From assembly GCA_019638795.1 (NCBI GenBank), contig JAHBTB010000006.1, positions 124,001 to 188,000 of the forward strand: a DNA stretch of 64,000 nt, written 5' to 3'. This DNA is from Fimbriimonadaceae bacterium. GTDB taxonomy: Bacteria > Armatimonadota > Fimbriimonadia > Fimbriimonadales > Fimbriimonadaceae. Shown here piece by piece: positions 38,690 to 54,233 of this stretch (positions within the stretch are counted from its first letter, which is position 1; every line of letters starts with the position of its first letter). Position numbers and translations under genes: made by a program. Below the pieces are notes generated by a model. It did not search any database. It had not been told where the DNA came from and saw only the letters and a program-made list of their open reading frames with translations.

Positions 38690-39715
38690 ATGGACTTGAG
38701 CAGGCGGGCGGTCTTGGCGGCAAGCCTGGCCGCCACCCCATTGGCGGCTTTGGCCTCGAAGGGGCCGAGGAAGCTGGTCCGCCCGCCCGCGCTCAAACCA
38801 GGTGACTCCGTGGCCTTGATCGCGCCGGCCTCGACCATGCCCGACGCGGCCGAGGTCGAGAGTGCCCGGCAGTTCGTCTTTTCATTAGGTTTCCGACCGG
38901 TCTTCGGCCTTCACGCGACCAAGACATGGGGGTACCTCGCGGGTACCGACGAAGAACGTGCGGCCGACCTGAACTGGGCGCTGCGGGACCCGTCAGTCGA
39001 CGGGATCATGTGCCTCCGGGGCGGGTACGGAGCGATGCGGTTCTTGCCGTCCATCGATTACGAGGCGGCGAGAGCCCACCCGAAGGTGTTTATCGGATAC
39101 AGTGACATCACCGCCCTCCTTGTCGCCATCACCCAAAAGGCAGGGGTCGTCACGTTCCACGGCCCGGTGGGCACATCGTCCGTCAGTGAATTCTCCACCA
39201 ATTGGATGATGCGCGCGCTTACTCAGCCAAGGCCCTTGGGAACATACACCCAGCCGGACCCTGCCAAGGCGGGGAAGGGTGATTTTGAATTGGTGACCGT
39301 GCACGGGGGCAAGGCGTCGGGCCCGCTTGTCGGCGGAAACCTCACCCTCCTGTCTTGTCTGATGGGCACGCCCTACGCCCCGGACATCGCGGGCAAGATC
39401 TTGTTCATCGAGGAGGTGCAGGAAGCTCCCTACCGGATCGACCGCATGCTGACGCAGATGTGGCTTTCCGGCGACCTTCAAAAGGTCCGCGGCGTCGCCT
39501 TGGGACAGTTCACCGACTGCGACTCACAGGAGCCCGGGTCATCCTGGAGAGTGAGGGATATCGTCGCCCTCCGCCTGAAGCCCTTGGGTGTCCCCGTCCT
39601 GTCGGGCCTGCCGATCGGCCATGTCAAGGACAAAATCACCTTGCCCCTGGGCGCCATGGCCCAACTTGACGCTGACGCCCAGACGCTGACTGTCCTCGAA
39701 CCTGCCGTCAGCTAA
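38690..39715 (+). CDS. Exported LD-carboxypeptidase (peptidase S66)
   Basis: Trims the terminal D-alanine from tetrapeptide stems of peptidoglycan during recycling or remodelling. Catalytic serine in FIGYSDITALL, glutamate in ILFIEEVQEAPYRIDRML and histidine in SGLPIGHVKDK. The N-terminus LSRRAVLAASLAATPLAALA is a Tat-like or Sec signal, so this form is exported, unlike cytoplasmic E. coli LdcA. 341 aa. The 3' end overlaps the convergent CBM9-like gene by 4 nt. Confidence 0.93.
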   Translation: MDLSRRAVLAASLAATPLAALASKGPRKLVRPPALKPGDSVALIAPASTMPDAAEVESARQFVFSLGFRPVFGLHATKTWGYLAGTDEERAADLNWALRDPSVDGIMCLRGGYGAMRFLPSIDYEAARAHPKVFIGYSDITALLVAITQKAGVVTFHGPVGTSSVSEFSTNWMMRALTQPRPLGTYTQPDPAKAGKGDFELVTVHGGKASGPLVGGNLTLLSCLMGTPYAPDIAGKILFIEEVQEAPYRIDRMLTQMWLSGDLQKVRGVALGQFTDCDSQEPGSSWRVRDIVALRLKPLGVPVLSGLPIGHVKDKITLPLGAMAQLDADAQTLTVLEPAVS

Positions 39716-40425
39716 TCGACAAAGGTGACGAACCCCCAGTGCTCGGGGAGGTGCATGTCGATGATGCCTTGGGGAGACCAGACCCAGTTGTCCTCGCGCA
39801 TATCGGGCTTCTTCACATACTTGCCGTCGACGATGTCGACCTGCCACTCGACACGGCTGAAATTGACGCGCCATGTGTCTCCACCATGTGGTGGAGTTGG
39901 CATGCCGCTCTGTTCCCGAAAGCAGTGCCAAGGAAAGGCGATCTCGACCCGCCAACCGGTGTCAATGTCGGTCGGGTTGTTGATGGTTCCGGCCACGTGG
40001 ACGGCCGAGGAGGCGTAAGACTCCCAACTGTTGTCGGCGCTGCCGCCGTTGCGGTATGTTTTGTCCAAATACAGGTCCCACGTCGTGTTCAGGGCGTTGA
40101 CCTCAAACTCAAAGTACCGCGCCCCGTCGCCGTCGGGGTCGATGAAGACCTCAAAGTCGTTGTCGTGGAAGATCACCGAGTCATGCAGGGTGAGGGTGCC
40201 CCAAACGTGGGGCTCTTCCATGGTCGCGGCGATGTAAAAGTAGTTGTCGTCCCATAACATCTTCGCCTGGGTGTGGAACCGGGGCAAGGGCTTCTTGTCA
40301 CCCTCGATGTCGACGAACGCGTCAGTCCATGCGGCCGCCGCCCAGGCGGGGTCGTCGATGCGACCGTTGACCTCGACTGGCTTGTAGGCCCGCCGGCACT
40401 CATATCGTTTGGGTGGTGTCAACAT
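39712..40425 (-). CDS. CBM9-like carbohydrate-binding protein
   Basis: Beta-sandwich of the carbohydrate-binding family 9/DOMON-like type: VEVNGRIDDPAWAAAAWTDAF at the N-terminus, MLWDDNYFYIAATMEEPHVW, FHDNDFEVFIDPDGDGARYF, and a C-terminal TWRVNFSRVEWQ are typical. 237 aa, no signal peptide, so probably cytoplasmic or exported by an unrecognised route. The start lies inside the end of the CtlX-like gene (7-nt overlap). It is last in the 49.7-39.7 kb unit. The ligand is unknown. Confidence 0.85.
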   Translation of the reverse strand: MLTPPKRYECRRAYKPVEVNGRIDDPAWAAAAWTDAFVDIEGDKKPLPRFHTQAKMLWDDNYFYIAATMEEPHVWGTLTLHDSVIFHDNDFEVFIDPDGDGARYFEFEVNALNTTWDLYLDKTYRNGGSADNSWESYASSAVHVAGTINNPTDIDTGWRVEIAFPWHCFREQSGMPTPPHGGDTWRVNFSRVEWQVDIVDGKYVKKPDMREDNWVWSPQGIIDMHLPEHWGFVTFVD

Positions 40426-41324
40426 CGCTCCTCTAAGAATATCTCACAAACCATGCACCGGATTCCGCCGCCGCCTTGCGACCAAATGGTGGGGAGTGGC
40501 GCACCGACCACGCGGGTGAAGAACGGCGAAAGTCGGCGACGCAAGGCGGCGTCGGCTTTGGGTGGTAGGGACCAGGAGCCGACAAGCATAGGCCCGTCAG
40601 ACCCTCTCACTTCAAGCACGTTGCCGCAAAACGCCCGGGCCTCTTGGTCGGATATCTCGACGATCTCGTGGCCGGTTTGCCTCAGTTGACTGGCCACACG
40701 CTCTCGGTCTGCTGGCTCAAGCCAGTCGGCGCATATGACGGCGCAATCTGTGCCGACCGACAGGCACACGTTGGTGTGATAGACCGCGACTCCGTCGCAA
40801 TTGGCTCGGAAGGGAACGAGTTCGTATTCCAACTCTCGGCACCATTCTCGGGCGACGCCGATGTCGGCACGCGAGCTCTCGCACATGTAGGCGAGACGGT
40901 TCACGCGGTCCAGGACCAGGCTGCCCGTGCCCTCTAGGGCGCGGCCTTCGTCCTCGTGACGGGTCAAATCGACCACACGGTTGACGGCAAAGGAAGAGTT
41001 TAGCCGGTCGATGATGTCCTCGCGCCGCTCGCGACGTCGGATCTGACTCAGCATAGGATAGACGACAACCGTGCCGTCCTCATGGGTTGTCAACCAATTG
41101 TTGGGAAAGACGGCGTCCGGCTTGACTGGAGTGGCGGTGTCGTCGACGACCACAAGCTTGACTCCGGCAGATTCAAGCTCTGCGACAGCGGCGTCGAACT
41201 CGGCGAGAGCATTGCTTGCTTTGCCGTTCTGGGTTTGGAATACGTTACTCGCGGCGGTCTCCGCGTTCCAACCGAACGAGGCCGGTCGGACCATGAGGAG
41301 CGTGTCAGTAGATTGACGAACCAT
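40419..41324 (-). CDS. CtlX-like arginine deiminase/amidinotransferase family hydrolase
   Basis: Guanidino-group-modifying enzyme fold. Landmarks: KPDAVFPNNWLTTHEDG (Asp/Asn), LEGTGSLVLDR, AVYHTNVCLSVG (catalytic His) and the nucleophile cysteine near the C-terminus in GGGIRCMVCEIF. This pattern matches the citrulline-utilisation hydrolase CtlX and dimethylargininase-like proteins. 301 aa. It sits 12 nt after a glycosyltransferase and overlaps the CBM9-like gene, a context unlike arginine catabolism. The substrate is uncertain. Confidence 0.88.
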   Translation of the reverse strand: MVRQSTDTLLMVRPASFGWNAETAASNVFQTQNGKASNALAEFDAAVAELESAGVKLVVVDDTATPVKPDAVFPNNWLTTHEDGTVVVYPMLSQIRRRERREDIIDRLNSSFAVNRVVDLTRHEDEGRALEGTGSLVLDRVNRLAYMCESSRADIGVAREWCRELEYELVPFRANCDGVAVYHTNVCLSVGTDCAVICADWLEPADRERVASQLRQTGHEIVEISDQEARAFCGNVLEVRGSDGPMLVGSWSLPPKADAALRRRLSPFFTRVVGAPLPTIWSQGGGGIRCMVCEIFLEERC

Positions 41325-41336
41325 AAGGTAAACGAA

Positions 41337-42455
41337 TTAACGGAGAAGCTCGCAGTAGCAGGACTCGTAGTCGGAGACCCACCGGTCGTAGGTGAAGCGC
41401 TCGGTGTTCTTGGTGCCGGCGGCGACCCATTCGTCGCGGTTTTGGAGGCGGGCAAGGACGGCCGGCACACCCGACTCCACATCAGCGGGGTCGACAAGGA
41501 CGGCGCTGTCTCCGGCGACTTCGCGCATTGGTTCCCGGTCGGACGTCACGACCGGGCACCCGCATGACTGGGCCTCGATGATCGGCAGGCCAAAGCCCTC
41601 GATGAACGATGGGAACAGAAGGGCGACGGCCCCGGAGTAGAGGGCCTCAACGGACTCCTTGGGCACCATGGAAAGGACGTGGACGTGCTGGTCCAGGCCC
41701 ATCTCGGCGATAACGGCCGCCGCGTCATCGTCAAGGTACTTGCTAAGAATGACAAGGCGAAGGTCGCCCAGACTTGGAGAACTTCGCAGGGCGCCGAATA
41801 TTTTGACAACCCCAGATTGGTTCTTGTATGGGCCCATTCCAATGTGGAAGACGTAGGGTGCCTCGGGTGGCACGCCATGGGACGTCAGGACGGCCTTAGT
41901 TTCCGTCGGCGTCCGCCGCACAAAGGTGCCGATCATCCCGTTCAGGATCTTACGGTGGTACTTTTTGTTTGGGACGAGGTTGTCGAGATCGATCCTCGTC
42001 TGCTCGCTGATCGAGACAAAGTTTGAGCACGCCCGCAGGCCGGACAAGATCATTTCCTGGAGCCGGTGGCCCGACTTCCCGATCTGCCAGGTGTCCAACT
42101 CGCCGAGGGCGACCCTGATGGCGAGAAGGTCGTGGATCGTGTACAGGTGGTTGAACTTGCTGACGACGGGGCCATAGAAGCCGTTCCCTTGGTCGATGAC
42201 GTGGACGAGGTCGTATTGGGAAGCGGTCTGGGCCAATTGTCGCGGGAACAAGACCATCTTGTCGATGTAGCCCGCCCACTTCGCCAGGCGGCCTAGCGGC
42301 CTTCGGTTGACCCGGGCCGTCGGGCGGACGACGTCGGCAGGCCACCCACGGTCGACGAGGCCGGCATGCAAGCCCTTTAGGTAGCCCTGCATGCTGAACT
42401 GGTGGTCGGGCTCGTAGTTACCGACCAAGAGGACCCGGTGTTTGGTGGTGCTCAC
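41337..42455 (-). CDS. Glycosyltransferase family 4
   Basis: A retaining GT-B transferase. The N-terminal domain shows NYEPDHQFSMQGYLKGLHAGL and DLVHVIDQGNGFYGP; the nucleotide-sugar side has YVFHIGMGPYKNQSGVVKIF, LLFPSFIEGFGLPIIEAQSCG (the E-x7-E type motif) and VVTSDREPMREVAGDSAVLV. 372 aa. The start overlaps the ftsK stop by 4 nt, so a glycosyltransferase is translationally coupled to a chromosome translocase. The acceptor is unknown; envelope glycan is likely. Confidence 0.9.
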   Translation of the reverse strand: MSTTKHRVLLVGNYEPDHQFSMQGYLKGLHAGLVDRGWPADVVRPTARVNRRPLGRLAKWAGYIDKMVLFPRQLAQTASQYDLVHVIDQGNGFYGPVVSKFNHLYTIHDLLAIRVALGELDTWQIGKSGHRLQEMILSGLRACSNFVSISEQTRIDLDNLVPNKKYHRKILNGMIGTFVRRTPTETKAVLTSHGVPPEAPYVFHIGMGPYKNQSGVVKIFGALRSSPSLGDLRLVILSKYLDDDAAAVIAEMGLDQHVHVLSMVPKESVEALYSGAVALLFPSFIEGFGLPIIEAQSCGCPVVTSDREPMREVAGDSAVLVDPADVESGVPAVLARLQNRDEWVAAGTKNTERFTYDRWVSDYESCYCELLR

Positions 42456-44695
42456 GCGTCAGGGTCTCCCGACCCTTCTCCCATTTCGGTCAGATAGGCG
42501 GTGTTCCCCAACAGCAGTTCTGCCCGTACTGGGTCGACCAAGACCTGGCGGGGCCGTGGTCCGTCGCGTTGTCCGACCACACCGCGCTCCTCCATCATGT
42601 CGAGCAACCGGCTCGCCCGTTGGAACCCGATCGAGAACTTACGTTGAATCATGGAGGTGGAGGCCTCGCCGCGCTCGACGACAAAGCGCACCGCCTGGGC
42701 CCAGAGGGGGTCGTCCTCTTGTTCGCGCATCTCGGCCTCCTTTTCCTCGATGACGATCTGGACCGGGTTCAACACGTAGTGGGGCTTTTCTTGCGCCCGC
42801 CAGAAGTCGCAGACGTCCTCGATCTCCTTTTCACTGACATAACACCCCTGGACACGGGTCGCTTTGGTGGCGTCGATGGGGAGGAAGAGCATGTCGCCCT
42901 TACCGATCAGCTTTTCTGCGCCAGCCTGGTCGAGGATGGTGCGCGAGTCGATCTGCGAGGACACGGCGAAGGCGATCCGCGACGAGATGTTGTTTTTGAT
43001 CGTGCCGGTGATGACGTCGACGCTCGGCCGCTGGGTGGCGATGACCAGGTGGATCCCGGTGGCGCGGGCCAGCTGGGCCAAGCGGCAGATGCTCGTCTCG
43101 ACCTCCGCGGCGGCCTGGATCATGAGGTCGGCCAACTCGTCGACGATCACGACGATGTAGCTGAGCTTTTCGTCGGGTCCAAACTTTGCGTTCCAACCGT
43201 CGATGTTGCGGACACCGGCCTCGCTGAACCGCTCGTAGCGGCGGTCCATCTCGCGCACGACCGCGCGGAGTACCCCCGGCGCTTCCTTGACGTCCTTCAC
43301 CACCGGGCACATCAAGTGGGGTAGCCCCTCGAAGAATGTCATCTCGACCCGTTTGGGGTCGATCATCACGAGGCGCAACTCCCGGGGGGAGAGGCGCAAG
43401 ATCAGGCTCATGATGATGGTGCCGAGGCAGATCGACTTGCCGCTGTTGGTCGCCCCACCGACGAGCAAGTGGGGCATCTTGGTCAGGTCGGTGTACTTGT
43501 GGGTGCCGCTGACGTCCTTGCCCAGGGCCACGGTCAGGCGGCTATTCTGGTCGTGGAACTCCAGGGTGTCCACCATTTCCCGGAGGGTCACCATCACCCG
43601 CTGGGCGTTCGGAACCTCGACACCGATGGCGCTTTTGCCCGGGATCGGGGCCTCCACGCGGACATGGCTTGCCGCCAAACCCATCGCGATGTTGTCGGCC
43701 AGAGCGGTGATCCGGTTGACCCGGATGCCGGGGCCCAGTTGGACCTCGTAGCGCGTGATCGTCGGGCCGTGGGCGACCTCGACGACGTTGGCCTCGATGT
43801 TGAACTGCTCCAGGGTGTCTTCCAGCACCTCGATGTTGCGCTGGATCTCCTTGGGGTCGCGCTTTGACTTGCCGCCGGGCTCGACGAGAAGACTCAGCGG
43901 CGGCAATTGGTAGCCGTCCCGGGGGGCGGGTGGATCAACCGCCAACTCGACCTGCTTGGTCGGCTCAGGGTCTTGGCGGAGTCCGTGCCGGCGGAGGGGT
44001 TTCTCTTCCGGGGCCTCCGGCTGTTCGGCGACCGACCCCTCCAGCATACGGACGGTGGCCCGTCGACGCGCCTCCTTCTGGTCTTCGTCGGGGAGGGCCT
44101 TCCTTTCGGGGTCAACGGCGGGCTTGGCGCGCAACTTGTCGATCGGCTTGCGTGCGGTGGCGGCCGCCCGGGCGACGAGCTCCCTGACCGGGTCCTCGAT
44201 GCAGAGCAACGCCCCGACAAGGAGCAAGACGGTGTTGCCGACCCAGTGGGCCGGGCCGAGCAGCGTGTGCATGGCCCATGCCGCGGAGCCACCGAGGTAG
44301 CCGCCTCCAGTCGCGAGGGCCTCAGGGTCGAAGAAGTCGCCGTTTGTGTCGCGGGCAAAGAAGGCGAGCAGGCCAAGGAAGACGAGGAGGGTGCCCCAGA
44401 AGACGCGCTGGTACTGGAACGCGGCCCGGCCCATGACCAAGCACCCCCCAGCGAAGCCGAGGACAAACGGCACGGCCCACGCGCCTTGCCCGAAAAAGGT
44501 CCGGAACGCACCGGTCACCGAGTCACCGACCAAGCCGCCGCGTCCCAAGACGAGGGTGACCAAGACGACGAGCCCGACGGCGACAAGCCCGATCCCGACG
44601 AACTCGGCACGACGATGGGTGGCGATGTTCGGCTTCCGCCGAGTCGCCGAGACATCGACGACCGCCTTGCGGCTCTTCAGCCCTTCCGTGGGCAT
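42452..44695 (-). CDS. ftsK: DNA translocase FtsK/SpoIIIE
   Basis: Septum-located DNA pump that clears chromosome ends at division. The N-terminal part (about 25-180) has about four membrane segments. A charged linker follows, then the motor: Walker A GGATNSGKS near residue 412, DPKRVEMTF, and Walker B VVIVDELADLM near 517, with ATQRPSVDVITGTIKNNISS. A gamma winged helix at the C-terminus (SMIQRKFSIGFQRASRLLD) would read KOPS-like sequences. 747 aa, the SpoIIIE size class. 24 nt after the RodA/FtsW gene. Confidence 0.96.
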   Translation of the reverse strand: MPTEGLKSRKAVVDVSATRRKPNIATHRRAEFVGIGLVAVGLVVLVTLVLGRGGLVGDSVTGAFRTFFGQGAWAVPFVLGFAGGCLVMGRAAFQYQRVFWGTLLVFLGLLAFFARDTNGDFFDPEALATGGGYLGGSAAWAMHTLLGPAHWVGNTVLLLVGALLCIEDPVRELVARAAATARKPIDKLRAKPAVDPERKALPDEDQKEARRRATVRMLEGSVAEQPEAPEEKPLRRHGLRQDPEPTKQVELAVDPPAPRDGYQLPPLSLLVEPGGKSKRDPKEIQRNIEVLEDTLEQFNIEANVVEVAHGPTITRYEVQLGPGIRVNRITALADNIAMGLAASHVRVEAPIPGKSAIGVEVPNAQRVMVTLREMVDTLEFHDQNSRLTVALGKDVSGTHKYTDLTKMPHLLVGGATNSGKSICLGTIIMSLILRLSPRELRLVMIDPKRVEMTFFEGLPHLMCPVVKDVKEAPGVLRAVVREMDRRYERFSEAGVRNIDGWNAKFGPDEKLSYIVVIVDELADLMIQAAAEVETSICRLAQLARATGIHLVIATQRPSVDVITGTIKNNISSRIAFAVSSQIDSRTILDQAGAEKLIGKGDMLFLPIDATKATRVQGCYVSEKEIEDVCDFWRAQEKPHYVLNPVQIVIEEKEAEMREQEDDPLWAQAVRFVVERGEASTSMIQRKFSIGFQRASRLLDMMEERGVVGQRDGPRPRQVLVDPVRAELLLGNTAYLTEMGEGSGDPDA

Positions 44696-44719
44696 AACTT
44701 CAACATTTTAGCATGGTGG

Positions 44720-45826
44720 TCAATGAAGCTGGTCGACGAGCCCGACGGACGCCATGCACGTCAGCAAGGCGGTCCCGCCGTTGCTGACAAAGGGGAGCCA
44801 GAGGCCGATGACCGGGCCGATGTTGAGGACCATCGCCAAGTTGACGACGGTGTGAAAGGCCAGGAAAGCGAGGAGACCCCCGGCGACGAGCCGCCCCATC
44901 GGCTCGCGGCACCGGAAGCCGGTGTCCCATAACCGATAGAAAAAGACCATGAAAACGCCTAAAACCACAACAGAACCGATGAGGCCCATCTCTTCGCCAA
45001 TGACGGAGAAGACAAAGTCGTTGTGCTGTTCAGGAATGTAGCGCCCCGCCTTTTGCTCGCCGCGGAGGTAACCGGTGCCGGTCACACCGCCCATTGCGAT
45101 CGCCTTGACCGACTGGGCCGCCTGCCAGCCCTTTCCCTGGGTGTCACTGGTACCTCGGAGGATCTTGCCAAAGAACTCGTCCAGTTTGCCTTTGTGGTAG
45201 TCGCTGAACGAGCCGCTGACCATCGCGACACCCAGCAGGGCGAGGACGCAGGCGATCGAGGCGCCGATATGTTGCCAAGGAACCCCTGCATAGAGCGCGA
45301 CGGCCAACCAGATGACCAACATGCAGGCCGCCCCGCCGTAGTGAGGTTGCAACATCAGCAGGACGACAAGCGGCGCGACGTGAAGGAACGAAAGGAAGAA
45401 CGTCTTGAGAGACTTCACCTCGTCCTGGCGGGCGGCGAAGAAGGTGGACAGAGTCAGGACCAGGAGGACTTTGGACAAGTCTCCTGGCTGAAACTGTATT
45501 GAACCGACCTCGATCCACCGCTGGGCGCCCTTTGCGGAGTGGCCTCCGGCAAGGACGGCGGCGAGGAGCAGGATGTTCAGGACATAGAGCCCCTTGGACG
45601 ACCACTGCCAAAACGACAACGGGATTCGGCGGAAGAGGTACCAGACGGCCACCCCCAACGCAGCGAAGACGCCCTGCCGGGCCGCGTTGTGAAATCCGGT
45701 CGCTTGGTCGATGCTGTGGATCGCGAGGATTCCGACGATGGTGAGGACTGCCGCCGACCCGACCAACCAGGGGTCGGCGAACCGACTCGGCTCCCGGCGG
45801 GTGATCGTGCCAAAGTCGGCCTGCAC
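44720..45826 (-). CDS. SEDS peptidoglycan glycosyltransferase (RodA/FtsW family)
   Basis: Polymerises lipid II in the membrane with a partner PBP. Family landmarks: SAKGAQRWIEVGSIQFQPGDLSK, PEQHNDFVFSVIGEEMGLIG (with the conserved Asp), and the C-terminal IGLWLPFVSNGGTALLTCMA. About ten membrane helices, 368 aa. The usual QPDLGTA loop is QPHYGGA here, a small deviation. RodA is slightly favoured over FtsW by length and spacing, but mreBCD, pbp and ftsZ genes are absent. 5 nt after the last small exported protein gene. Confidence 0.9.
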   Translation of the reverse strand: MQADFGTITRREPSRFADPWLVGSAAVLTIVGILAIHSIDQATGFHNAARQGVFAALGVAVWYLFRRIPLSFWQWSSKGLYVLNILLLAAVLAGGHSAKGAQRWIEVGSIQFQPGDLSKVLLVLTLSTFFAARQDEVKSLKTFFLSFLHVAPLVVLLMLQPHYGGAACMLVIWLAVALYAGVPWQHIGASIACVLALLGVAMVSGSFSDYHKGKLDEFFGKILRGTSDTQGKGWQAAQSVKAIAMGGVTGTGYLRGEQKAGRYIPEQHNDFVFSVIGEEMGLIGSVVVLGVFMVFFYRLWDTGFRCREPMGRLVAGGLLAFLAFHTVVNLAMVLNIGPVIGLWLPFVSNGGTALLTCMASVGLVDQLH

Positions 45827-45831
45827 GGGGT

Positions 45832-46509
45832 TCAGCCCTCCGTGGGCTTGTCGCTCACGGCCCGTGGCTCACGGGTGGAGTTCAAGCCAAACTCGCGCTT
45901 CACGATCCCCTTGCCTGGGTCGAACCAGAAGCGCAGGCGACGCTTGGACTTCTCGGGTGCCCCACCGTCGAAGCTCAACTGGACCTCCACCAGGTAGGTG
46001 TTAAAGTGGCCCGCGGTGATGTTCAGCTCTTCGCGCTTGGCTTTGATCTCGGCCTCGGCGGGATACGAGCCGTCGCCCATGCGGATCTTGCCGCTCCAAG
46101 TCCAGGGAGAATCGCTCTGGAGGGGGTAGTGCACCAGCGGCAACGGGGGGTCGTACTTCTCGGCCTCTGTGCCGACAAAGCGGAACCCAGACTTGTCGTA
46201 GGTGTAGGTCTCCGTGCTCGTGGTCTCACCGTCGACCATGAGTTTGAGGGTGACGGTGTCGCCGGTGTCTTCGGTCTTGACGTCCACGGGGACGACGGAC
46301 CCCTGGTAGATCAAGTTGCCTTTGGCAAACGAGGTCGCCTGGGGCTTCATCGTGTCGGCGGTCTGGGCGAGGGTCTCCACTTGCCCGGGAGCGCTGTTTT
46401 CCTCCGCCTTGGCTTTGGCGTTGTTGTACATCACGCACCCCGCCGTGATCACGACGGCGCAGGATGCGGTGACGAGGGCAGCGGCGGCTTTTCCCATGAC
46501 GATGCTCAT
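45832..46509 (-). CDS. Small lipoprotein of unknown function, array member 4
   Basis: No named family. N-terminal lipobox VVITAGC (Cys near 25). The body is beta-rich: IYQGSVVPVDVKTEDTGDTV, TETYTYDKSGFRFVG, then FNTYLVEVQLSF and the motif FWFDPGKGIVKREFG. Similar 'variable strand, then W/F-x-P-G-x-G-x-V-K' elements occur in the two genes upstream. 225 aa. It overlaps the upstream gene by 4 nt and is 5 nt before the RodA/FtsW gene. Confidence 0.8.
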   Translation of the reverse strand: MSIVMGKAAAALVTASCAVVITAGCVMYNNAKAKAEENSAPGQVETLAQTADTMKPQATSFAKGNLIYQGSVVPVDVKTEDTGDTVTLKLMVDGETTSTETYTYDKSGFRFVGTEAEKYDPPLPLVHYPLQSDSPWTWSGKIRMGDGSYPAEAEIKAKREELNITAGHFNTYLVEVQLSFDGGAPEKSKRRLRFWFDPGKGIVKREFGLNSTREPRAVSDKPTEG

Positions 46510-47150
46510 GCGTTTGTGTCGCCCATTGATACGAGCGTTCTCTTACTCGAATACTTCTCTTTGTTGACCGTCGTCGTCTGCTCCATCTCGACTAGGCCGA
46601 TTCCCTTGCCATAGACCGACCTTTGGACGGATTTGATGGGGGGCTCGCCGGCCGCGCCGTAGATGACGTCGAGGGTCACCTCGACGCAGTCCACGTCCTT
46701 ACCCAAGACCTTTCGCTTACCAATTGGCCGAGACGTGCCCTTCAGGACCATGTCGGCCACCGTCTTCATAAACTCCGTCTTACCGGCGAACTCCCAGGTG
46801 GTCCGCTTGTCATCGACCTTGAGCACCGGGTACTGGTACGTCGTGGCCTCGCGGACGACTTGGTCGTCGACTTCCTTCTTGATGTAACTCTTGAAGATGA
46901 CGAAGACGGTGTCGCCCTCCACCAAGTAAAAGGTGGGTTCGCTGGTCCGTCCATGCGAGACGGTCGTGAACGGCGCGACTTCTTTGTCAAGGAGTTTGGT
47001 CGGTTTGCCGACCTTGTCGGTGAAGACTTCCTGAGACCGCCCTGTCTTCTCGCTGTACGTCCACGTCGTCCCGGGGACAGTGGGGAAGTATGCCGCAGCA
47101 TCGCCGGCCACCAGCAAGGTGGACATCAGCGGAAGAAGGGCGGCCAGCAT
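46506..47150 (-). CDS. Small exported protein of unknown function, array member 3
   Basis: No named family. A signal peptide (MLAALLPLMSTLLVAGDAAA) without a clear lipobox. The body starts with YFPTVPGTTWTYSEK, an instance of the 'P..(x)G..W.Y' pattern, followed by VDCVEVTLDVIYG and SVYGKGIGLVEMEQTT, aligned with the 'G.G.V' motif of the neighbours. 214 aa. 7 nt after member 2 and overlapping member 4 by 4 nt, indicating coordinated translation. Confidence 0.8.
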   Translation of the reverse strand: MLAALLPLMSTLLVAGDAAAYFPTVPGTTWTYSEKTGRSQEVFTDKVGKPTKLLDKEVAPFTTVSHGRTSEPTFYLVEGDTVFVIFKSYIKKEVDDQVVREATTYQYPVLKVDDKRTTWEFAGKTEFMKTVADMVLKGTSRPIGKRKVLGKDVDCVEVTLDVIYGAAGEPPIKSVQRSVYGKGIGLVEMEQTTTVNKEKYSSKRTLVSMGDTNA

Positions 47151-47157
47151 CGGAGAC

Positions 47158-47886
47158 TTATCCCTGGGAGGTCAACTCGATCGTGCTCGTCCGGTCGCCG
47201 TCCTTGTCCTTGATGTTCAGGACCATTTTCACGACCCCGTAGCCGGGGGCGTACCAACTGGTGCCGTTGACACCGATCTTCTGGTCCTTGGTCAGGTTGC
47301 CGGTCGTTGTCGCGACGAAACAATCAAACTCGCCACCGGCCACCTTGATCTTTTCCTTGCGGACGACCTTGTTGGTCATGTCGATCTTGATGTCCTTGCC
47401 GTCCATGCCCTTCACGGTCTCGTGGCTCGGCCACGAGACGTCCACGGCGAGTTTGGCGGGCAGCGCCAGCATCGGCGGGTCGATCGTCGTGGCGGCGGCG
47501 AAGGTGGAGTAGACGCCGTCCGGTTTCAGGATGACTTCGTCGTCGCCAAGGATCGAAAGGTCACCGTCACGCTTGATCGTGAAGGTGGGGTTGCCGTCAT
47601 GCAGCCCCTTGTAGACCACCGACTGGGTGCCGGTCTTCTCGCCCAAGTTTGGCTGTTGGGTGAGTTTATAGGTCAGCGTCTTCTTGCAGTCCAAGCCGTA
47701 GTAGGTGTAGCCGTCGGTCTTCAGGTTCGCTGCGATGTCTTCGACCTTAGGGGTGGACGCGGGTGCTTCCGTCGCCGCGGTGGTCGCCGGCTTGTTGGTT
47801 TCCGGGTTCGGCGTGTTCGTGGCCGGCGGCTGGCAGCCGACCAAGCCGAACACCGCCAAAGACAGGGGGATCAGGCATTTGTTCAT
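47158..47886 (-). CDS. Small lipoprotein of unknown function, array member 2
   Basis: No named family. Lipobox GLVGC (C18), then a Thr/Pro/Glu linker to about residue 48. The body contains KKTLTYKLTQ, GGEFDCFVATTTG and WYAPGYGVVKMVLNIKD, the clearest form of the shared C-terminal motif. 242 aa. The gene lies 7 nt after member 1 and 7 nt before member 3. The recurring 'deposit strand, conserved W/Y-P-G-x-G' layout suggests all four are diverged copies of one domain. Confidence 0.82.
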   Translation of the reverse strand: MNKCLIPLSLAVFGLVGCQPPATNTPNPETNKPATTAATEAPASTPKVEDIAANLKTDGYTYYGLDCKKTLTYKLTQQPNLGEKTGTQSVVYKGLHDGNPTFTIKRDGDLSILGDDEVILKPDGVYSTFAAATTIDPPMLALPAKLAVDVSWPSHETVKGMDGKDIKIDMTNKVVRKEKIKVAGGEFDCFVATTTGNLTKDQKIGVNGTSWYAPGYGVVKMVLNIKDKDGDRTSTIELTSQG

Positions 47887-47893
47887 GGATCGA

Positions 47894-48604
47894 TCACTTA
47901 GCAGTATGACTCTTCAGGCGGAAGATTTCCTTTCCGTTGAAGTCCTTCGTCGAGGTCTGTTGGACAAACCGGGCGAGGCCGACCTTGGGGACAAACCAGA
48001 GGGTCGCGCTCGTCACGAAGTCTTGGCCCTTGTAGCTGAACTTTGTGTTGGATTCGACGGTGACCGCCTCCATGGGGCCCTCTTCCGTGTCGATCCGTTC
48101 GGTCCCGCGGCACTTGTTCTGCACCTTCTGGTCGACAACGTCGGCACCGGTGGTCGGGGCCGGGCCCTTGAGGTCTTGGTTGAACGTCTCACCGTCTTTG
48201 ACGGGGAACTTGCACAGCATCTGCGGCGGGGTGTACGCCGCTCTACGGTCGGTGCTGTTGATCTGATAGATACCGGACTTGTCGACTCTCCAGTCGCTGC
48301 TGTCCAGGTGTTTGGAGCCCTCCAGGATTTCCAGCGTCGCAATGGTCGCGTCACCCTCCTTGCGGCTCGCCGTGACCTTGAACGTCAGCTCTCGGGTGGC
48401 CGACCCGCCGTTCTGGGTGGATTGGACTTCGTAGACCCACTCGTTGCCGACGGACAACGGCCAGAGCTCGGCTTCGTTCCCGGGTGTCACCGTCATGTTC
48501 TTGACCTCGGGCGGCTTCTCGGGGACGTAGCCTCCGCCTCCTTGGGAGCATCCTCCCAGGGCGACGGCGGCGATGGCAATGAAGGGCAGACGGCGGTTGA
48601 TCAT
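47894..48604 (-). CDS. Small lipoprotein of unknown function, array member 1
   Basis: No named family. Lipobox ALGGC (C19) and a short linker, then AELWPLSVGNEWVYEVQ, the best copy of the shared N-terminal motif, followed by beta strands, MEAVTVESNTKFSY and TLWFVPKVGLARFVQQTS. 236 aa. The start overlaps the stop of the SecD-head-like gene by 4 nt. The 'yPLxxGN.W.Y' motif also occurs in DUF3108-like lipoproteins, a distant resemblance only. Confidence 0.82.
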   Translation of the reverse strand: MINRRLPFIAIAAVALGGCSQGGGGYVPEKPPEVKNMTVTPGNEAELWPLSVGNEWVYEVQSTQNGGSATRELTFKVTASRKEGDATIATLEILEGSKHLDSSDWRVDKSGIYQINSTDRRAAYTPPQMLCKFPVKDGETFNQDLKGPAPTTGADVVDQKVQNKCRGTERIDTEEGPMEAVTVESNTKFSYKGQDFVTSATLWFVPKVGLARFVQQTSTKDFNGKEIFRLKSHTAK

Positions 48605-49734
48605 GTTTTCTTGGTGTTCGGCAGGGAGTTGATGAAGTCGGCGGCTTCCTTCGCCAGGCTTTCATTGGGAAGCTGTTTGATGGTGATTTCGTTGGACGAG
48701 AGTTCCGTGTTGATCTTCGGCGCGGCGAGCGGTATCCCGTTGACGACGAACATCAGGTGGAACGCCTGGTGGCCATGACTGTACTTCCACAGGCGCATCC
48801 GGCCGTCGTCGGTCAGTTGGATAGTGAGGTCGGCGAAGGTTTTGCCGTCGTTGCTTTGGTAGGTGCGCACCGTGGCACCTTTCACCTGCTGGTCGTTGAG
48901 CAGCACCTTGGAAATCTTCAGGAGTTCCTGGGGCTTTTCCGCCCACGTCGCCGTCCGGGAGGCGCCGATCTTGGTGGCCAGGGCTTTGGCGACGTCCTCC
49001 CGAGGCGTCCGCTTTTCCATAAGCCCGATCGCGGCGTCCCGGTACCAGGCCGTGATCATCTCCGGCGGTGGGTTGAACTTCTCGTTGATGCGCTTCTGGA
49101 TGTCGGTGGCGAACTTGCTCATGTACGCCTCCTGGACCATCGCGGTCAACTCGGACTCTTTCCCTTCGAGCGGGACCCTCACCTTCACCGGGATGTCGAG
49201 GACGATGCCGTTGAGCAAGGTGCGTAGCCGCAAGGTGTCGGGCGGCGTCCCGTCGAGGCCGATGTGAAGGTCGCTCTCCAGGCGCTGGCGAAGGGCGGCG
49301 TCGCCCTTCAGGGCCTTGTCGATGTCCGCGGCCTTCCATTCGACCCTGGTGGCGGGCAAGTCGTCCTCGCGCAGGTCGTTCATCGCCATGACGAGGTAGC
49401 CGAGGTCCTTTTCGTCGCCGCGCAGAGAACCGAGAAACTCTTTGATGGGGATCCGGTGCAGCCCGCTGGCGTCCGATTCCATCGAACTCGACTTACCGGT
49501 GCCGTGATTGGTCACCTCGGCCAACTGGGCGACCTCGTTGGCCACGATGATCTTGTACCGGGAGCCCCCTTCAATGCCGACCAACGTGACGCTTCCCGGG
49601 GTGATCGGCGTCGGGTTGTACCCGTTGACCTGGACGTCGCCCCAAGCGCGCCACCCGTAATACACTCCTGCCGACAACAGGAGCGCCATGGTGACCACCT
49701 TCAACGAGGCCCGGGTCGAGGCATTGAGCTTCAT
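48601..49734 (-). CDS. Single-span membrane protein with a SecD-head-like C-terminal domain
   Basis: No confident family. One N-terminal membrane segment (VVTMALLLSAGVYYGW) is followed by about 350 extracytoplasmic residues. The last 85 (SNDGKTFADLTIQLTDDGRM, FVVNGIPLAAPKINTELSSN, EITIKQLPNESLAKEAADFI) resemble the first periplasmic head domain of SecD, with its 'v.dG.v.saP.i...i' and terminal helix, as judged by eye. The middle has NGIVLDIPVKVRV and RINEKFNPPPEMITAWYRDA. 377 aa. It lies downstream of the ABC exporter and overlaps the first lipoprotein gene by 4 nt. A periplasmic binding or chaperone role is inferred. Confidence 0.7.
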   Translation of the reverse strand: MKLNASTRASLKVVTMALLLSAGVYYGWRAWGDVQVNGYNPTPITPGSVTLVGIEGGSRYKIIVANEVAQLAEVTNHGTGKSSSMESDASGLHRIPIKEFLGSLRGDEKDLGYLVMAMNDLREDDLPATRVEWKAADIDKALKGDAALRQRLESDLHIGLDGTPPDTLRLRTLLNGIVLDIPVKVRVPLEGKESELTAMVQEAYMSKFATDIQKRINEKFNPPPEMITAWYRDAAIGLMEKRTPREDVAKALATKIGASRTATWAEKPQELLKISKVLLNDQQVKGATVRTYQSNDGKTFADLTIQLTDDGRMRLWKYSHGHQAFHLMFVVNGIPLAAPKINTELSSNEITIKQLPNESLAKEAADFINSLPNTKKT

Positions 49735-49801
49735 GATAGGGTGACGACCGTCACAAGAGCTAACGAGTGTACCGGCCCGGTCGGTTCCCCGCCTGGCCCG
49801 T

Positions 49802-51496
49802 TCAGTCCGTCGGGTTGAAGTTCCGGTAGGTCCGCCCGGCCCCGTAGAGGCAACCGGCGGTCAGGGCCGAGACGACCGGCATGACGACGATGGCGGCGAG
49901 CCAATAGTTGACCGTGGCGAGGAAGCCGTAGCCGATCGCCGACCCATAGATGACGAAGGTGAGACCCAATCCCTGGACCAGCCTCCTGAACGTGTTCTGG
50001 GCGGGGTCGGCCATGTCGGGAAGGAGGATCGCGAGGAACAGGGACGCGACCGACGCGAACGCGCACATCACCACCATGGTCAGCCACGTAGGGAGGACTG
50101 TCACCCAAAGGTGGGGGAGCCAGACACACATGCCGCAGAGGGAGACCAGGCCGACGACGGCGGCGGGCACGACCTTGCTGAACGCCTCGACAAAGATGAG
50201 CCGTCCCGTCTTGAGCGGGAGGGGCCGGAGCAGTTCGCCCTTCTTCAAGAACTCTCGGAACCCGACCTGGCTCTGGCCCGAGACGACCATCGGGCTCATG
50301 AGGAGCAAGACCGAAGGCAAGATCACGTAGAGCTTGGGTTCAGCCCGGCCAAGCGAACTGAGGAAGTAGGAGAGGTAGACGAACACGGCGGGCACAATCA
50401 ATGCCGCGAACAGCACACCACCGGCCGACCGGGAAAGAATGACGACCTCCTTCCACCAAAAGGCCATGTCGCCGGTGACCCGGAGCGAACTTAGCCACCC
50501 AATGTTCCGGGCCTTGAGCTTGCCCGACCGGGCCCGTTGCATGTTCACCTGCCCCTGGGCGTCCCCGGAGCGGCGGTTCTTGATCTCGGCACGGGTCACC
50601 GCGACTCGCGAGGCCACCTCATACACCTTGGGCGCGCGCCACAGCATCACGGCAAAACCCGAGACGGCCATCAGGACGAGAAAGGCGAAGCCCGCCACTG
50701 CGCCGCCCATGTCCTGGGTCAGAGGGAACGCACCGAACTTGATCGCGGCCACCGCAGGGTAGAGCACAAGCTGGACGTCGGGGGCCCGGGACAAGGCGAC
50801 GAGCCCCGCGCCGGGGTCGTCAGTCTTCAGGACCTGGGCGGCGCGATAGACCAGCACGGCCAGGTAGGCCAAGGCCCCCAACGAACAAGCCCAACTCGCC
50901 GCCGTCCGCAGTCGCATGGGGCGCTGGTCGCTCTCGGTCCACAGGAGGGCCGTCGCGTAGCGCCAAGCGGCCCAGGCCAGTTGCATCAGCAGGTAGGCCA
51001 GGGTCGCCGTCTTGAACGCGGTCGAGAGCGCGGCAAAGTCCAATTGCCCCATCCCCCCCGAGCGGGTGATCCTCGCAAAGGGCCGCGCGGCGAAGAGGAG
51101 CATCAACAGGGGCCAGAGGAGCCGGGCCAGGTAGCCCTTGGCGAAGTTCCACATCAAGTACAGCCGCGGGCTGATCGGAGTGGGGACAAGGACGTCGACC
51201 TCGGCCAGTTGGAACGTCATGGGGGCCTGGAACAGGGTCAGGAGCGTCGACCAACTGACGAAGCCCAGGAAGCAAAAGCCAAGGGTGACGAGCAGGTCGG
51301 CCGCCCCGGCCCCGACGTGGGGGGCGAACATGCCGACCGAACTTGGCCCGGTGGACACCCCGAGGAACACCCGGCTGAGCCACCACACCTGCATGGCGAC
51401 AAAGAAGACCGTCGCCAAGGCACGCACCGGCGTCTGGAACGACCGCCTGACCCCGTTGACGATGGAGCGCCTAGCGAGGAAGAGGAGGGGCTTCAT
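49802..51496 (-). CDS. ABC-type exporter permease, putative ABC exporter family
   Basis: A 564-aa polytopic membrane protein, the partner of the upstream ATPase. It has about ten to twelve hydrophobic segments, including AAWRYATALLW and VSGQSQVGFREFLKKGELL-type loops, matching the 'putative ABC exporter' family found with ABC-2 type ATPases. The start overlaps the ATPase stop by 26 nt. It ends 67 nt before the SecD-head-like gene, the largest gap in the block. The exported substrate is unknown. Confidence 0.85.
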   Translation of the reverse strand: MKPLLFLARRSIVNGVRRSFQTPVRALATVFFVAMQVWWLSRVFLGVSTGPSSVGMFAPHVGAGAADLLVTLGFCFLGFVSWSTLLTLFQAPMTFQLAEVDVLVPTPISPRLYLMWNFAKGYLARLLWPLLMLLFAARPFARITRSGGMGQLDFAALSTAFKTATLAYLLMQLAWAAWRYATALLWTESDQRPMRLRTAASWACSLGALAYLAVLVYRAAQVLKTDDPGAGLVALSRAPDVQLVLYPAVAAIKFGAFPLTQDMGGAVAGFAFLVLMAVSGFAVMLWRAPKVYEVASRVAVTRAEIKNRRSGDAQGQVNMQRARSGKLKARNIGWLSSLRVTGDMAFWWKEVVILSRSAGGVLFAALIVPAVFVYLSYFLSSLGRAEPKLYVILPSVLLLMSPMVVSGQSQVGFREFLKKGELLRPLPLKTGRLIFVEAFSKVVPAAVVGLVSLCGMCVWLPHLWVTVLPTWLTMVVMCAFASVASLFLAILLPDMADPAQNTFRRLVQGLGLTFVIYGSAIGYGFLATVNYWLAAIVVMPVVSALTAGCLYGAGRTYRNFNPTD

Positions 51497-52214
51497 GGGG
51501 CTGGGTCAAGGAAAGGAAGAGCTGTTCAAGGTCGGCCCCCTGCATCTGGCTGAGGTTGCGGAGTTCGTCGACGGTCCCCTGGGCGACCATCTTGCCTTTG
51601 CTCATGATGACGACCCGGTCGCACAGCTTTTCCGCGACGTCGAGCAGGTGGGTGGAGACGAGGTAGGAGCAGCCTTGCTCGCGACCCCGGGCCATCTCGG
51701 TCTTGAACTCGGCGACCCCGGCCGGGTCGACCCCGATGATCGGCTCGTCGAAGAGGAAGACGTTCGCGTCGTGGACCATCGCACAGGCGATGCTGAGCTT
51801 CTGCCGCATGCCCTTGCTGAGGGTCGCCACAAGTTCTTTGCGCTTGTCGGTCAGAGAGTATCGGGCCAACAGCCGGTCGATGTTCGACTCGTAGACGCTC
51901 AACGTGTCGAAGCACATCGCGACAAAGCGGATGTGCTCTTCCACGGTGAGGAGCTCGTACAGGTTGGGCACCTCGGGCACGAAGGCCAGTCCCCGCTTAG
52001 CCTTGGCCATTTCCGTCTGCATGTCGTGGCCGTTGACCCGGATGTGCCCGGACGTCGGCTCGAGGATCGTCGTGATGCACCGCATCAGGGTCGTCTTTCC
52101 CGCGCCGTTAGGGCCGAGCAGGCCGACGATCTCGCCAGGGCCGACGCTGAAACTGACGGAGTCCACCGCCCGTACGGTCTTGAAGACCTTGGTGACGCCG
52201 ACGACTTCCAGCAT
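51471..52214 (-). CDS. ABC transporter ATP-binding protein, exporter type
   Basis: Drives the adjacent permease. Walker A GLLGPNGAGKTTLM, signature LSKGMRQKLSIACAM (SKGMRQK in place of SGGQ, typical of ABC-2 exporters), Walker B NVFLFDEPIIGVDP and switch histidine in STHLLD. 247 aa from the ATG at 52214; ATG 52232 adds six residues and has AAAAGG upstream. Head-to-head with moxR, so the short 52233-52280 gap must hold both promoters. Confidence 0.94.
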   Translation of the reverse strand: MLEVVGVTKVFKTVRAVDSVSFSVGPGEIVGLLGPNGAGKTTLMRCITTILEPTSGHIRVNGHDMQTEMAKAKRGLAFVPEVPNLYELLTVEEHIRFVAMCFDTLSVYESNIDRLLARYSLTDKRKELVATLSKGMRQKLSIACAMVHDANVFLFDEPIIGVDPAGVAEFKTEMARGREQGCSYLVSTHLLDVAEKLCDRVVIMSKGKMVAQGTVDELRNLSQMQGADLEQLFLSLTQPHEAPPLPR

Positions 52215-52280: not shown

Positions 52281-53228
52281 ATGAGGGTTGCCGAAGCCGC
52301 CGAAAGGGTCTATGGCGAGGTCGGGAAGGCGGTGGTCGGACAGACCAGGGCCGTCGAACAGGCGCTGGTCGCCGTGCTCGCCGACGGCCATGTCCTCCTC
52401 GAAGGAGTCCCGGGGCTCGCCAAGACGTTGCTCGTGCGGTGCTTGGCCAAGGTCATGGACCTTGAGTTCAAACGCGTCCAGTTCACGCCGGACCTGATGC
52501 CGAGTGACGTGGTAGGCACCAACGTTTTTGACCCGCGCACCGCCGAGTTCTCGTTGCGGCAGGGCCCGATCTTCACCGCCGTCCTTCTGGCGGACGAGAT
52601 CAACCGAACCCCGCCAAAGACTCAAGCGGCGTTGCTGGAGGCGATGGAAGAGAGGCAGGCGACCATCGACGGCACGGCCTACCGCCTGCCGTTCCCGTTC
52701 CTCGTCTTTGCCACCCAGAACCCCGTCGAGTTCGAGGGGACATACCCCTTGCCCGAGGCCCAGCAAGACCGCTTCATGCTCAAGGTGGTCATGGAGTATC
52801 CGCCTGCCGGGGCCGAAATCGACGTGCTCCGCCGGTTCCACCAGGGCTTCCGCTCCCAAAGCCTCGACGCGGCCGGGTTGACCCCGGTCATCGACGAGGC
52901 CACACTCAAGGCGCTTCGGGCCGAGGTGTCCGCGGTGACCGTCGAAGACAAGATCCTCAGCTACATCTACGAGATCGTCAGCGCGACCCGGGCGAGCCAC
53001 GACATCCTCGTCGGAGCGTCGCCGCGTGCCGGCCTGGCCCTGGTCTCGTGTGGCAAGGCGGTCGCCGCCGTGCGGGGCCGCGACTTCGTGATCCCCGACG
53101 ACGTCAAGGAACTGGCCGTCCCGGTCTTGCGGCACCGCATCATGCTCCGCCCCGAGGCCGAGATCGAGGGCCTGCGGGTGGACGACGTCTTGCGCCACCT
53201 AGTCGACGCCCAGGCCGTCCCGCGGTAG
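52281..53228 (+). CDS. MoxR family AAA+ ATPase
   Basis: AAA+ chaperone-like ATPase. Landmarks: VVGQTRAVEQALVAVLADGH, Walker A LLEGVPGLAKTLL, FTPDLMPSDVVGTNVFD, Walker B ADEINRTPPKTQAALLEAME, sensor ATQNPVEFEGTYPLPEAQQD and GASPRAGLAL. 315 aa. ATG 52281 matches the family N-terminus; ATG 52251 is an alternative. The usual DUF58 and transglutaminase-like partners are absent; the next gene, after 3 nt, is a glycosyltransferase. Confidence 0.94.
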   Translation: MRVAEAAERVYGEVGKAVVGQTRAVEQALVAVLADGHVLLEGVPGLAKTLLVRCLAKVMDLEFKRVQFTPDLMPSDVVGTNVFDPRTAEFSLRQGPIFTAVLLADEINRTPPKTQAALLEAMEERQATIDGTAYRLPFPFLVFATQNPVEFEGTYPLPEAQQDRFMLKVVMEYPPAGAEIDVLRRFHQGFRSQSLDAAGLTPVIDEATLKALRAEVSAVTVEDKILSYIYEIVSATRASHDILVGASPRAGLALVSCGKAVAAVRGRDFVIPDDVKELAVPVLRHRIMLRPEAEIEGLRVDDVLRHLVDAQAVPR

Positions 53229-53231
53229 GTC

Positions 53232-54233
53232 ATGGTCCGCGTCCTTTCGCTACGGCGGCAACGGCTTGGTGGTATGGCCACCTTGAGCTCCGCGTTGGCC
53301 CTTGCCCTTGAACCGCACGACGTCGAAATGGTCGTCGACGACGCGGACACGTGGATACCGGACAAGACGGGGTTCGGCACCGACCGCCAGGTGAGCAAGC
53401 TTGTCCGCGACGCCGCCCGGGGGTTTGACCTTGTCCATGCCTGGGGGTACCGCACCGCCTGGGCCTGCAGCGAGGCGTTCGGGCTCAACTTTCCCTGGGT
53501 CTACACCGCATACGACTGGCCTAAAACCACAAGCTCCCAGCTGATCGACCGGATGAACACCGCCCGGGCCGGGCTGGTGCCCACCCGCGCCCTGAAAAAC
53601 TACCTCGACGACCACGACACGCTGAACCTGGAGTTGATCGACCCTGGCGTCGCCCCCCAGCACGTCGTCGAGACGAAGGAGGAGGCCCGCCGCCAGTTCG
53701 GGTTGCCGGAGGACCGACCCTTGGTCGCGGTGGTCGCCAAGTTTGACAAGGACTCGGGGATCGACGCCGTCGTCGCGGCGGTCCACGCGGTCGCCGACGA
53801 CCATCCCGACATCGCCCTTGTGGTCGCGGGGAGCGGGCCCGACGCCGACCTGGTGGAACGCATGCACGACGGCGGGCGCGTCTTCGTCGTGCCCGGCACC
53901 GTCGAGACACCCAAGCTCCTCCGCGCCGCCGACCTCTTGGTCGTCGCCAAGCGTCGTGCCGCCTTCAGCATGGTCGCTCTGGAGGCCATGGCCGTCGGCA
54001 CGCCCGTCTGCCTACGACGCCTGGGCGGGCTGCCCGACATGGGGGTGGAAGACCTCAGCATCGCCCTCTTCGACGACGACGAAGACCTGGCCGGCACTAT
54101 CAGCAGCTTGTTCAACGCGCCCCATTACCTGGAGTCCCTTGCCGACTCGGCCCGAACCCGGGCGACCGATTGGTACGGAATCGACGAGTCGGCCTACCGG
54201 CACTCCCGCCTGTACAAAGAAGTCCTTGGCTAG
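53232..54233 (+). CDS. Glycosyltransferase family 4
   Basis: A GT-B retaining transferase. N-terminal features: LGGMATLSSALALAL and FDLVHAWGYRTAWACSEAFG. The C-terminal donor site has PLVAVVAKFDKDSGID, LVVAGSGPDADLVERM and VVAKRRAAFSMVALEAMAVGTPVCL (F-x7-E motif). 333 aa. Only 3 nt after moxR, so the two are probably co-transcribed. The acceptor is unknown. A second GT4 gene (41.3 kb) and a GT2 gene (61.2 kb) lie elsewhere in the window. Confidence 0.88.
   Translation: MVRVLSLRRQRLGGMATLSSALALALEPHDVEMVVDDADTWIPDKTGFGTDRQVSKLVRDAARGFDLVHAWGYRTAWACSEAFGLNFPWVYTAYDWPKTTSSQLIDRMNTARAGLVPTRALKNYLDDHDTLNLELIDPGVAPQHVVETKEEARRQFGLPEDRPLVAVVAKFDKDSGIDAVVAAVHAVADDHPDIALVVAGSGPDADLVERMHDGGRVFVVPGTVETPKLLRAADLLVVAKRRAAFSMVALEAMAVGTPVCLRRLGGLPDMGVEDLSIALFDDDEDLAGTISSLFNAPHYLESLADSARTRATDWYGIDESAYRHSRLYKEVLG

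Follow-up and report, generated by a model that had tools for sequence, protein, structure and literature searches.

A ten-gene run around rodA and ftsK in the Fimbriimonadia: gene order, predicted folds and promoter-like elements

The run and its packing

The DNA considered here is a 64-kb window (the whole stretch of 64,000 nucleotides that was analysed) from a genome of the class Fimbriimonadia, phylum Armatimonadota. Ten minus-strand genes lie packed in it as a single run, from position 49734 to 39712 (Table 1). In the order of reading they encode a protein with a SecD-head-like domain (SecDh), four exported proteins related to the DUF3108 family (lp1–lp4), a SEDS glycosyltransferase (RodA), the DNA translocase FtsK, a family 4 glycosyltransferase (GT4), a guanidino-group hydrolase and a protein resembling carbohydrate-binding module family 9 (CBM9). 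A first-pass annotation made from the sequence had described ten genes in one direction with tight spacing between these coordinates, and all of this was found again: the junctions, from 5' to 3', measure -4, 7, 7, -4, 5, 24, -4, 12 and -7 nt, with a largest gap of 24 nt and four overlaps. The SEDS, FtsK, GT4 and CBM9-like names given in that annotation are upheld by domain scores, and what it called small exported proteins turn out to be four in number, all of one family. The genes for an ATP-binding cassette (ABC) permease and its ATPase lie in the same direction 5' of SecDh, giving a directon of 12 genes, with a gap of 67 nt in between; beginning the run at SecDh is nevertheless sensible, since that gap contains the best promoter candidate.

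Table 1. Genes and promoter-like elements of the run and of the upstream transporter pair (window positions; bit scores with model cut-offs where given)
Feature	Position	Strand	Remarks
ABCa, ABC transporter ATPase	51471..52214	-	PF00005 119.9 bits; overlaps the permease gene by 26 nt
ABCp, ABC exporter permease	49802..51496	-	PF16962 93.6 bits, cut-off 29.7
P1, promoter-like GGTACACT	49766..49773	-	31 nt before the SecDh start
SecDh	48601..49734	-	N-terminal membrane helix, large insert, predicted C-terminal SecD-P1-head-like domain
lp1, DUF3108-like lipoprotein	47894..48604	-	lipobox-like sequence in 23/26 aligned members; paralog of lp2 and lp3
lp2, DUF3108-like lipoprotein, predicted YmcC fold	47158..47886	-	PF21347 36 bits, cut-off 27
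lp3, exported DUF3108-like protein	46506..47150	-	lipobox-like sequence in 0/22; hhalign match to lp1
lp4, DUF3108-like lipoprotein	45832..46509	-	lipobox-like sequence in 17/24; hhalign match to lp2
RodA, SEDS peptidoglycan glycosyltransferase	44720..45826	-	SEDS/RodA PF01098 263.7 bits, cut-off 26.4
P2, -10-like TAAAAT	44705..44710	-	in the RodA–FtsK gap, 9 nt before the FtsK start
FtsK DNA translocase	42452..44695	-	PF01580, PF17854 and PF09397 over cut-off
GT4 glycosyltransferase	41337..42455	-	PF00534 69.6 bits; beside FtsK only in this genome and its congener
DDAH/CtlX-like guanidino-group hydrolase	40419..41324	-	DDAH_eukar PF19420 262.6 bits
CBM9-like protein	39712..40425	-	CBM9_1 PF06452 48.9 bits

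How unusual is such packing? The run is the longest in the window (10 genes at gaps of at most 25 nt, the runner-up having 4), and an equally long one appears in 3.3% of 20,000 shuffles of the window's 62 junction states. Tightness by itself is thus only modestly unusual. Half of the 62 neighbouring gene pairs are tight and co-directional, so the genes might simply be neighbours in a compact genome, with no function in common. For the run as a whole such chance packing is quite improbable, and for its first six genes it is refuted, because the order SecDh–lp–RodA is kept across the family while SecDh identity falls to about 30%. It may still account for the last three genes.

The SecDh–lp–RodA core

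The comparison of gene order covered 41 genomes: the window's own, one congener, 23 other members of the same family (f1) and 16 from elsewhere in the order. The queries were SecDh, RodA, FtsK, GT4, the hydrolase and the CBM9-like protein. A simple gene caller missed some genes (e.g., at loci L074, L078, L079 and L085), and apparent exceptions were therefore settled with six-frame searches with hidden Markov models (HMMs) for SecDh and lp1–lp4 and with tblastn; the final counts of neighbours around SecDh and RodA come from these. The synteny comparison that the first-pass annotation had proposed separates the run into three layers. The SecDh–lp–RodA core is old and family-wide, being found in 23 of the 25 f1 genomes, the window included; in the other two (G014 and G022) the contig stops too early to tell. 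FtsK stands directly behind RodA in eight of these 23 (G000, the window's genome; G001, its congener; G004, G005, G010, G013, G018 and G020), about 1.0–1.5 kb behind it in two (G016 and G017) and divergently upstream in one (G011). GT4, the hydrolase and the CBM9-like gene follow FtsK only in the genus (G000 and G001), and in none of the six other genomes with RodA–FtsK. Within the core, junctions are a few nucleotides in most genomes. The picture is similar in 46 GTDB loci that partly overlap with these genomes: RodA comes next in 40, the contig is cut in 4, and 2 loci of a sister family have a MoxR gene instead. Outside f1, FtsK and RodA are on separate contigs or 488 kb apart (16/16, many of the assemblies being fragmented).

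The SEDS protein appears nearest to RodA. Its best NCBIfam model is TIGR02210 (284.9 bits, cut-off 336.7), and it aligns to E. coli RodA (8tj3) with E 3.1e-47, keeping the PE-H-DF motif: PEQHNDF aligns with PERHTDF of the E. coli protein, the conserved Asp included. The Asp of this PExHxDF loop has a catalytic role in RodA. The other SEDS gene of the genome (C1:69580) is 6.5 kb from a class B penicillin-binding protein (PBP) gene (C1:77186). PBP_dimer genes are found at C11:73635 and C1:77186 and none on C6, so that there is no PBP2 gene beside rodA; the PBP2-type PBP (on C11) and MreC (on C9) are unlinked to it. In E. coli, PBP2 and RodA are encoded together in the mrdA–mrdB elongation operon. 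The likeness to that system consists of RodA lying in an envelope operon, in a genome that has a PBP2-type PBP and MreC; here, however, RodA is accompanied instead by SecDh and DUF3108-like proteins.

SecDh is not a SecD subunit, scoring 15.2 bits against the 244.4 required by the full-length model TIGR01129. For its earlier SecD-head-like name the sequence match is weak (15.7 bits, cut-off 27), but the predicted fold supports it. In the AlphaFold model (mean predicted local distance difference test, pLDDT, 90.1), the C-terminal domain matches SecDF (5xan/3aqo) at Z 10.9 with a root-mean-square deviation (rmsd) of 4.2 over 127–131 residues; the SecDF entries score 10.9, 10.9, 10.8 and 10.7, the next unrelated row 5.2. 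SecDh is thus predicted to carry the P1 head fold of SecD/SecDF, but differs from these proteins in having one membrane helix (no SecD transmembrane domain) and a large insert. A second hydrophobic stretch is absent in 26 of 28 members. SecD-head matches in other Armatimonadota (L103–L107) were not counted as the module, four of the five having been read and lacking lp genes; these four encode a membrane-anchored single-domain protein of about 204 amino acids, adjoined in three of them by a radical-SAM gene.

Profile comparison places lp1–lp4 in one paralogous family (hhalign E 1.7e-21 for lp1–lp2, 1.7e-19 for lp1–lp3, 3.1e-15 over 127 columns for lp2–lp4 and 1.2e-12 for lp2–lp3). The DUF3108-like model PF21347 gives lp1 18 of the 27 bits required, and lp3 and lp4 have no DUF3108 match. 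The lp2 model (pLDDT 90.0) resembles the YmcC-like proteins of Bacteroidota (4fvs, Z 13.5, rmsd 4.0, 180 residues aligned; 3fzx, Z 13.4, rmsd 4.1, 178 aligned) and, modestly, E. coli YmcC (2in5, Z 9.8). According to PMC8592465, GfcB is a YmcC-fold lipoprotein with a predicted place in the outer membrane, where its binding partners are a periplasmic protein and a barrel of that membrane; the products GfcB, GfcC and GfcD of the operon for the E. coli group 4 capsule are described there as forming an outer-membrane complex. The two systems share the fold, the lipoprotein character and the arrangement as a tandem operon of exported proteins, and the GfcB complex makes it reasonable that tandem YmcC-fold proteins form a complex. 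In the present case, on the other hand, there are four paralogs and no recognised capsule genes in the unit, which also encodes no partner outer-membrane barrel.

The YmcC fold raises a different possibility, namely that SecDh and the lp proteins serve lipoprotein or lipid transport, working with the upstream ABC exporter in a Lol-like manner, and that RodA is a mere passenger. The lp2 model weakly resembles LolA (Z ~7), a resemblance of the YmcC fold also described in the GfcB text of PMC8592465. The LolA family is not detected at E 0.001 in 30 of the 41 genomes, the window's included, and lp1–lp4 have no match to it in sequence. The ABCa–ABCp pair lies upstream of SecDh in 14 of 23 f1 genomes (window included), and the module exists without RodA in f3 and f5. 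However, common arrangements give Z values of this size too, and LolA is lacking in many of the genomes; on these grounds a LolA-like route was dropped as the main explanation. The pair is not beside the module in 7 of the 23 (2 more being cut there), nor in any of the four uncut f5 genomes; the permease belongs to the ABC_export family; and a promoter-like element separates it from SecDh. Transport as the purpose of the module is accordingly kept as a rival and looks rather unlikely.

In the congener assembly there is a second, diverged copy of ABCa–ABCp–SecDh–lp2–lp3–lp4–RodA (L019, G001:C64:1000-15000), with 48% identity to the window's SecDh; this copy may be a duplication or contamination.

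Promoter-like elements, FtsK and the tail genes

The pattern GGTA[N][AT][ACT]T, of which P1 is an instance, precedes SecDh in 44 of 75 loci, where shuffling gives 2.3 on average and 8 at most. These loci include repeats of the same genome from two collections; when distinct upstream sequences are counted, 39 of 65 have it. Before the inner genes it is nearly absent (lp1 1/65, lp2 0/69, lp3 0/52, lp4 0/64, RodA 0/67, FtsK 0/28). P1 is the sole intergenic one of six matches in the window, and the longer form GGAACN8-10GGTANAMT occurs once in the 2.7-Mb genome, at the SecDh upstream. A sigma-70 consensus scan returned no promoter in the 67-nt gap, and a search for TTG/TTGA...TAnnnT upstream of SecDh stayed at shuffle level, so P1 as a promoter rests on its -10-like part.

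FtsK probably has its own transcription start, in the window close enough to the start codon for a nearly leaderless message. Of 45 distinct sequences upstream of FtsK, 29 contain TATA[AC]T (shuffle mean 1.5); upstream of SecDh, lp1–lp4 and RodA it does not occur at all. The window has TAAAAT at this place (P2) and the congener TAGACT, likewise 9 nt before the FtsK start; TAnAAT matches in the window are intergenic in 3 of 5 cases, where 0.2 would be expected. The protein has the ATPase, alpha and gamma domains, while the model of the N-terminal 4TM region gives 21.4 bits (cut-off 23.1); at E 1e-30 no other gene of the genome matches it.

Is the run then one operon that is transcribed from a single promoter and serves growth and division as a unit? 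In its favour, none of the nine junctions in a row exceeds 24 nt, and there is no convincing terminator between the genes (terminator-like sites are barely above shuffle, 16 found against a mean of 10.1, standard deviation 3.4), and the congener has the same order. The case is weakened by the -10-like element that FtsK has here and in most relatives, and by the tail genes being unlinked in every genome outside the genus. A single ten-gene operon is consequently a doubtful proposition. In view of the terminator result, transcription from the SecDh promoter could still read through, while the element before FtsK makes two overlapping transcripts likelier than the one originally proposed. The remark that such genes are not normally together stands for the hydrolase and the CBM9-like gene, which are unlinked elsewhere, but not for RodA and FtsK.

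The tail genes have the look of later additions, the hydrolase sharing no neighbour among 14 fetched relatives. It is found in 16 of the 41 genomes and matches PF19420 over its full length (positions 1–291 of 291). The CtlX-like name given to it stands in part: the CtlX equivalog NF046062 is its best NCBIfam model, yet at 314.6 of 334 bits it stays below the cut-off, and its place behind FtsK is seen in this genus only. Searching the PDB with its sequence gave nothing at E 0.001. The CBM9-like protein matches a xylanase CBM9 (1i82) at E 0.0042, shows no signal peptide by eye and has an 81% identical counterpart at the same place in the congener.

The ftsK leaders of relatives have a further feature. 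Of the 45 distinct sequences upstream of FtsK, 25 have an ANGGAN motif after the -10 element or, if no such element was seen, within the final 70 nt; in L116, L117, L112, L080, L081 and L121–L123, for example, the motif is 12–32 nt before the start. Pairing of its flanks over five positions reaches 88.8%, whereas re-dealt 3' arms give 68.6% on average and 78.4% at most in 1000 trials; the better of two loop sizes was taken in both cases and, the sequences being related, this is not a probability. A hairpin could thus form between the -10 element and the start, its stem varying in sequence with pairing kept. An ANGGAN-loop hairpin resembles a CsrA binding site, and CsrA is present in all 41 genomes. 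Post-transcriptional control of ftsK through a CsrA-like hairpin is possible in the Fimbriimonadia. The window, the congener and 18 other sequences have no ANGGAN motif in the ftsK leader, though one (L029) has a GGA-loop hairpin further upstream. In the genus, the short RodA–FtsK gap stands in place of the leader, so any CsrA-like control would have been lost there. Compared with Rfam, 19 of the 20 loci upstream of FtsK had chance-level matches only (E 3 and above). Searches of open-licence papers turned up none on the SecDh–lp–RodA module and none that deals with CsrA and ftsK in Armatimonadota.

Layers of the run and their possible function

The explanation favoured here, with a probability of roughly 0.55, is that the run is a composite, in which a lineage-specific, RodA-coupled envelope core is followed by FtsK with its own promoter and by a genus-only tail added later. 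FtsK would have been placed behind RodA with its promoter kept, and GT4, the hydrolase and the CBM9-like gene added behind it in the genus, where they are probably co-transcribed with FtsK without sharing a pathway. The likeliest transcripts would then be one from P1, covering SecDh to RodA and partly reading on, and one from P2, covering FtsK to the CBM9-like gene.

What might the core do? SecDh would be a periplasmic protein anchored in the inner membrane, and the lp lipoproteins would be located at the outer one; together they could form a trans-envelope complex that spans the periplasm and tunes or guides RodA-driven wall elongation with the unlinked PBP2 and MreC, co-transcription keeping the amounts of SecDh, lp proteins and RodA matched. 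There is a possible parallel in E. coli, where LpoA and LpoB act on class A PBPs, as SecDh and the lp proteins are here proposed to act on RodA elongation. In the strongest form of this idea, RodA has in this family a trans-envelope partner of its own, composed of SecDh and the four YmcC-fold proteins, which activates or steers elongation and is made from an operon-specific promoter; this form is tentative and rather improbable.

Several observations weigh against a composite built on a RodA-coupled core. RodA can do without the core: all seven f2 genomes have RodA but neither SecDh nor lp1, and in f5 RodA lies apart from the core. Conversely, the core is present without an adjacent RodA in all six resolved f3 and f5 genomes (G027, G038 and G040 being outside this count; in G032 RodA is 2.9 kb away, behind MoxR), and the first role of the SecDh and lp genes may thus be an independent one. 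One or two lp genes are missing in G009, G010, G015, G019, G021 and G024, and in the congener core and tail are connected solely by an ftsK whose two parts lie at the ends of different contigs. The P1 motif was not found in 26 of the 65 distinct upstreams, some of them belonging to the distant L103–L107 proteins, and both P1 and P2 are sequence patterns, their role as promoters being putative.

If the composite explanation holds, layers that differ in age can be stacked into one long, tidy operon, and tight spacing alone is no proof of one pathway. The routes by which outer-membrane factors reach the elongation machinery are known mainly from Proteobacteria. A conserved RodA operon with partners of predicted SecD-head and YmcC fold would offer five named candidates in a phylum with almost no cell biology, and the class includes a cultured, rod-shaped member, Fimbriimonas ginsengisoli (PMC4072686).

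Some neighbours of the run recur in other genomes. In 12 of 23 f1 genomes, the window included, and in 4 of 5 f5 genomes the module has a MoxR ATPase gene next to it; in f5 this gene is downstream of the SecDh module in the same direction. In the window, this MoxR AAA ATPase gene (52281-53228, plus strand) is followed by a GT4 glycosyltransferase gene (53232-54233, plus strand), both divergent from the run. At the other end, an LD-carboxypeptidase gene (Peptidase_S66; 38690-39715, plus strand) is convergent and overlaps the end of the CBM9-like gene by 4 nt; an S66 gene is also found close behind RodA in some f5 genomes (L047, L049, L051 and L052). Elsewhere in the window, two genes for cyclophilin-type peptidyl-prolyl isomerases lie in tandem and overlap (25537-26214 and 26199-26819, plus strand).

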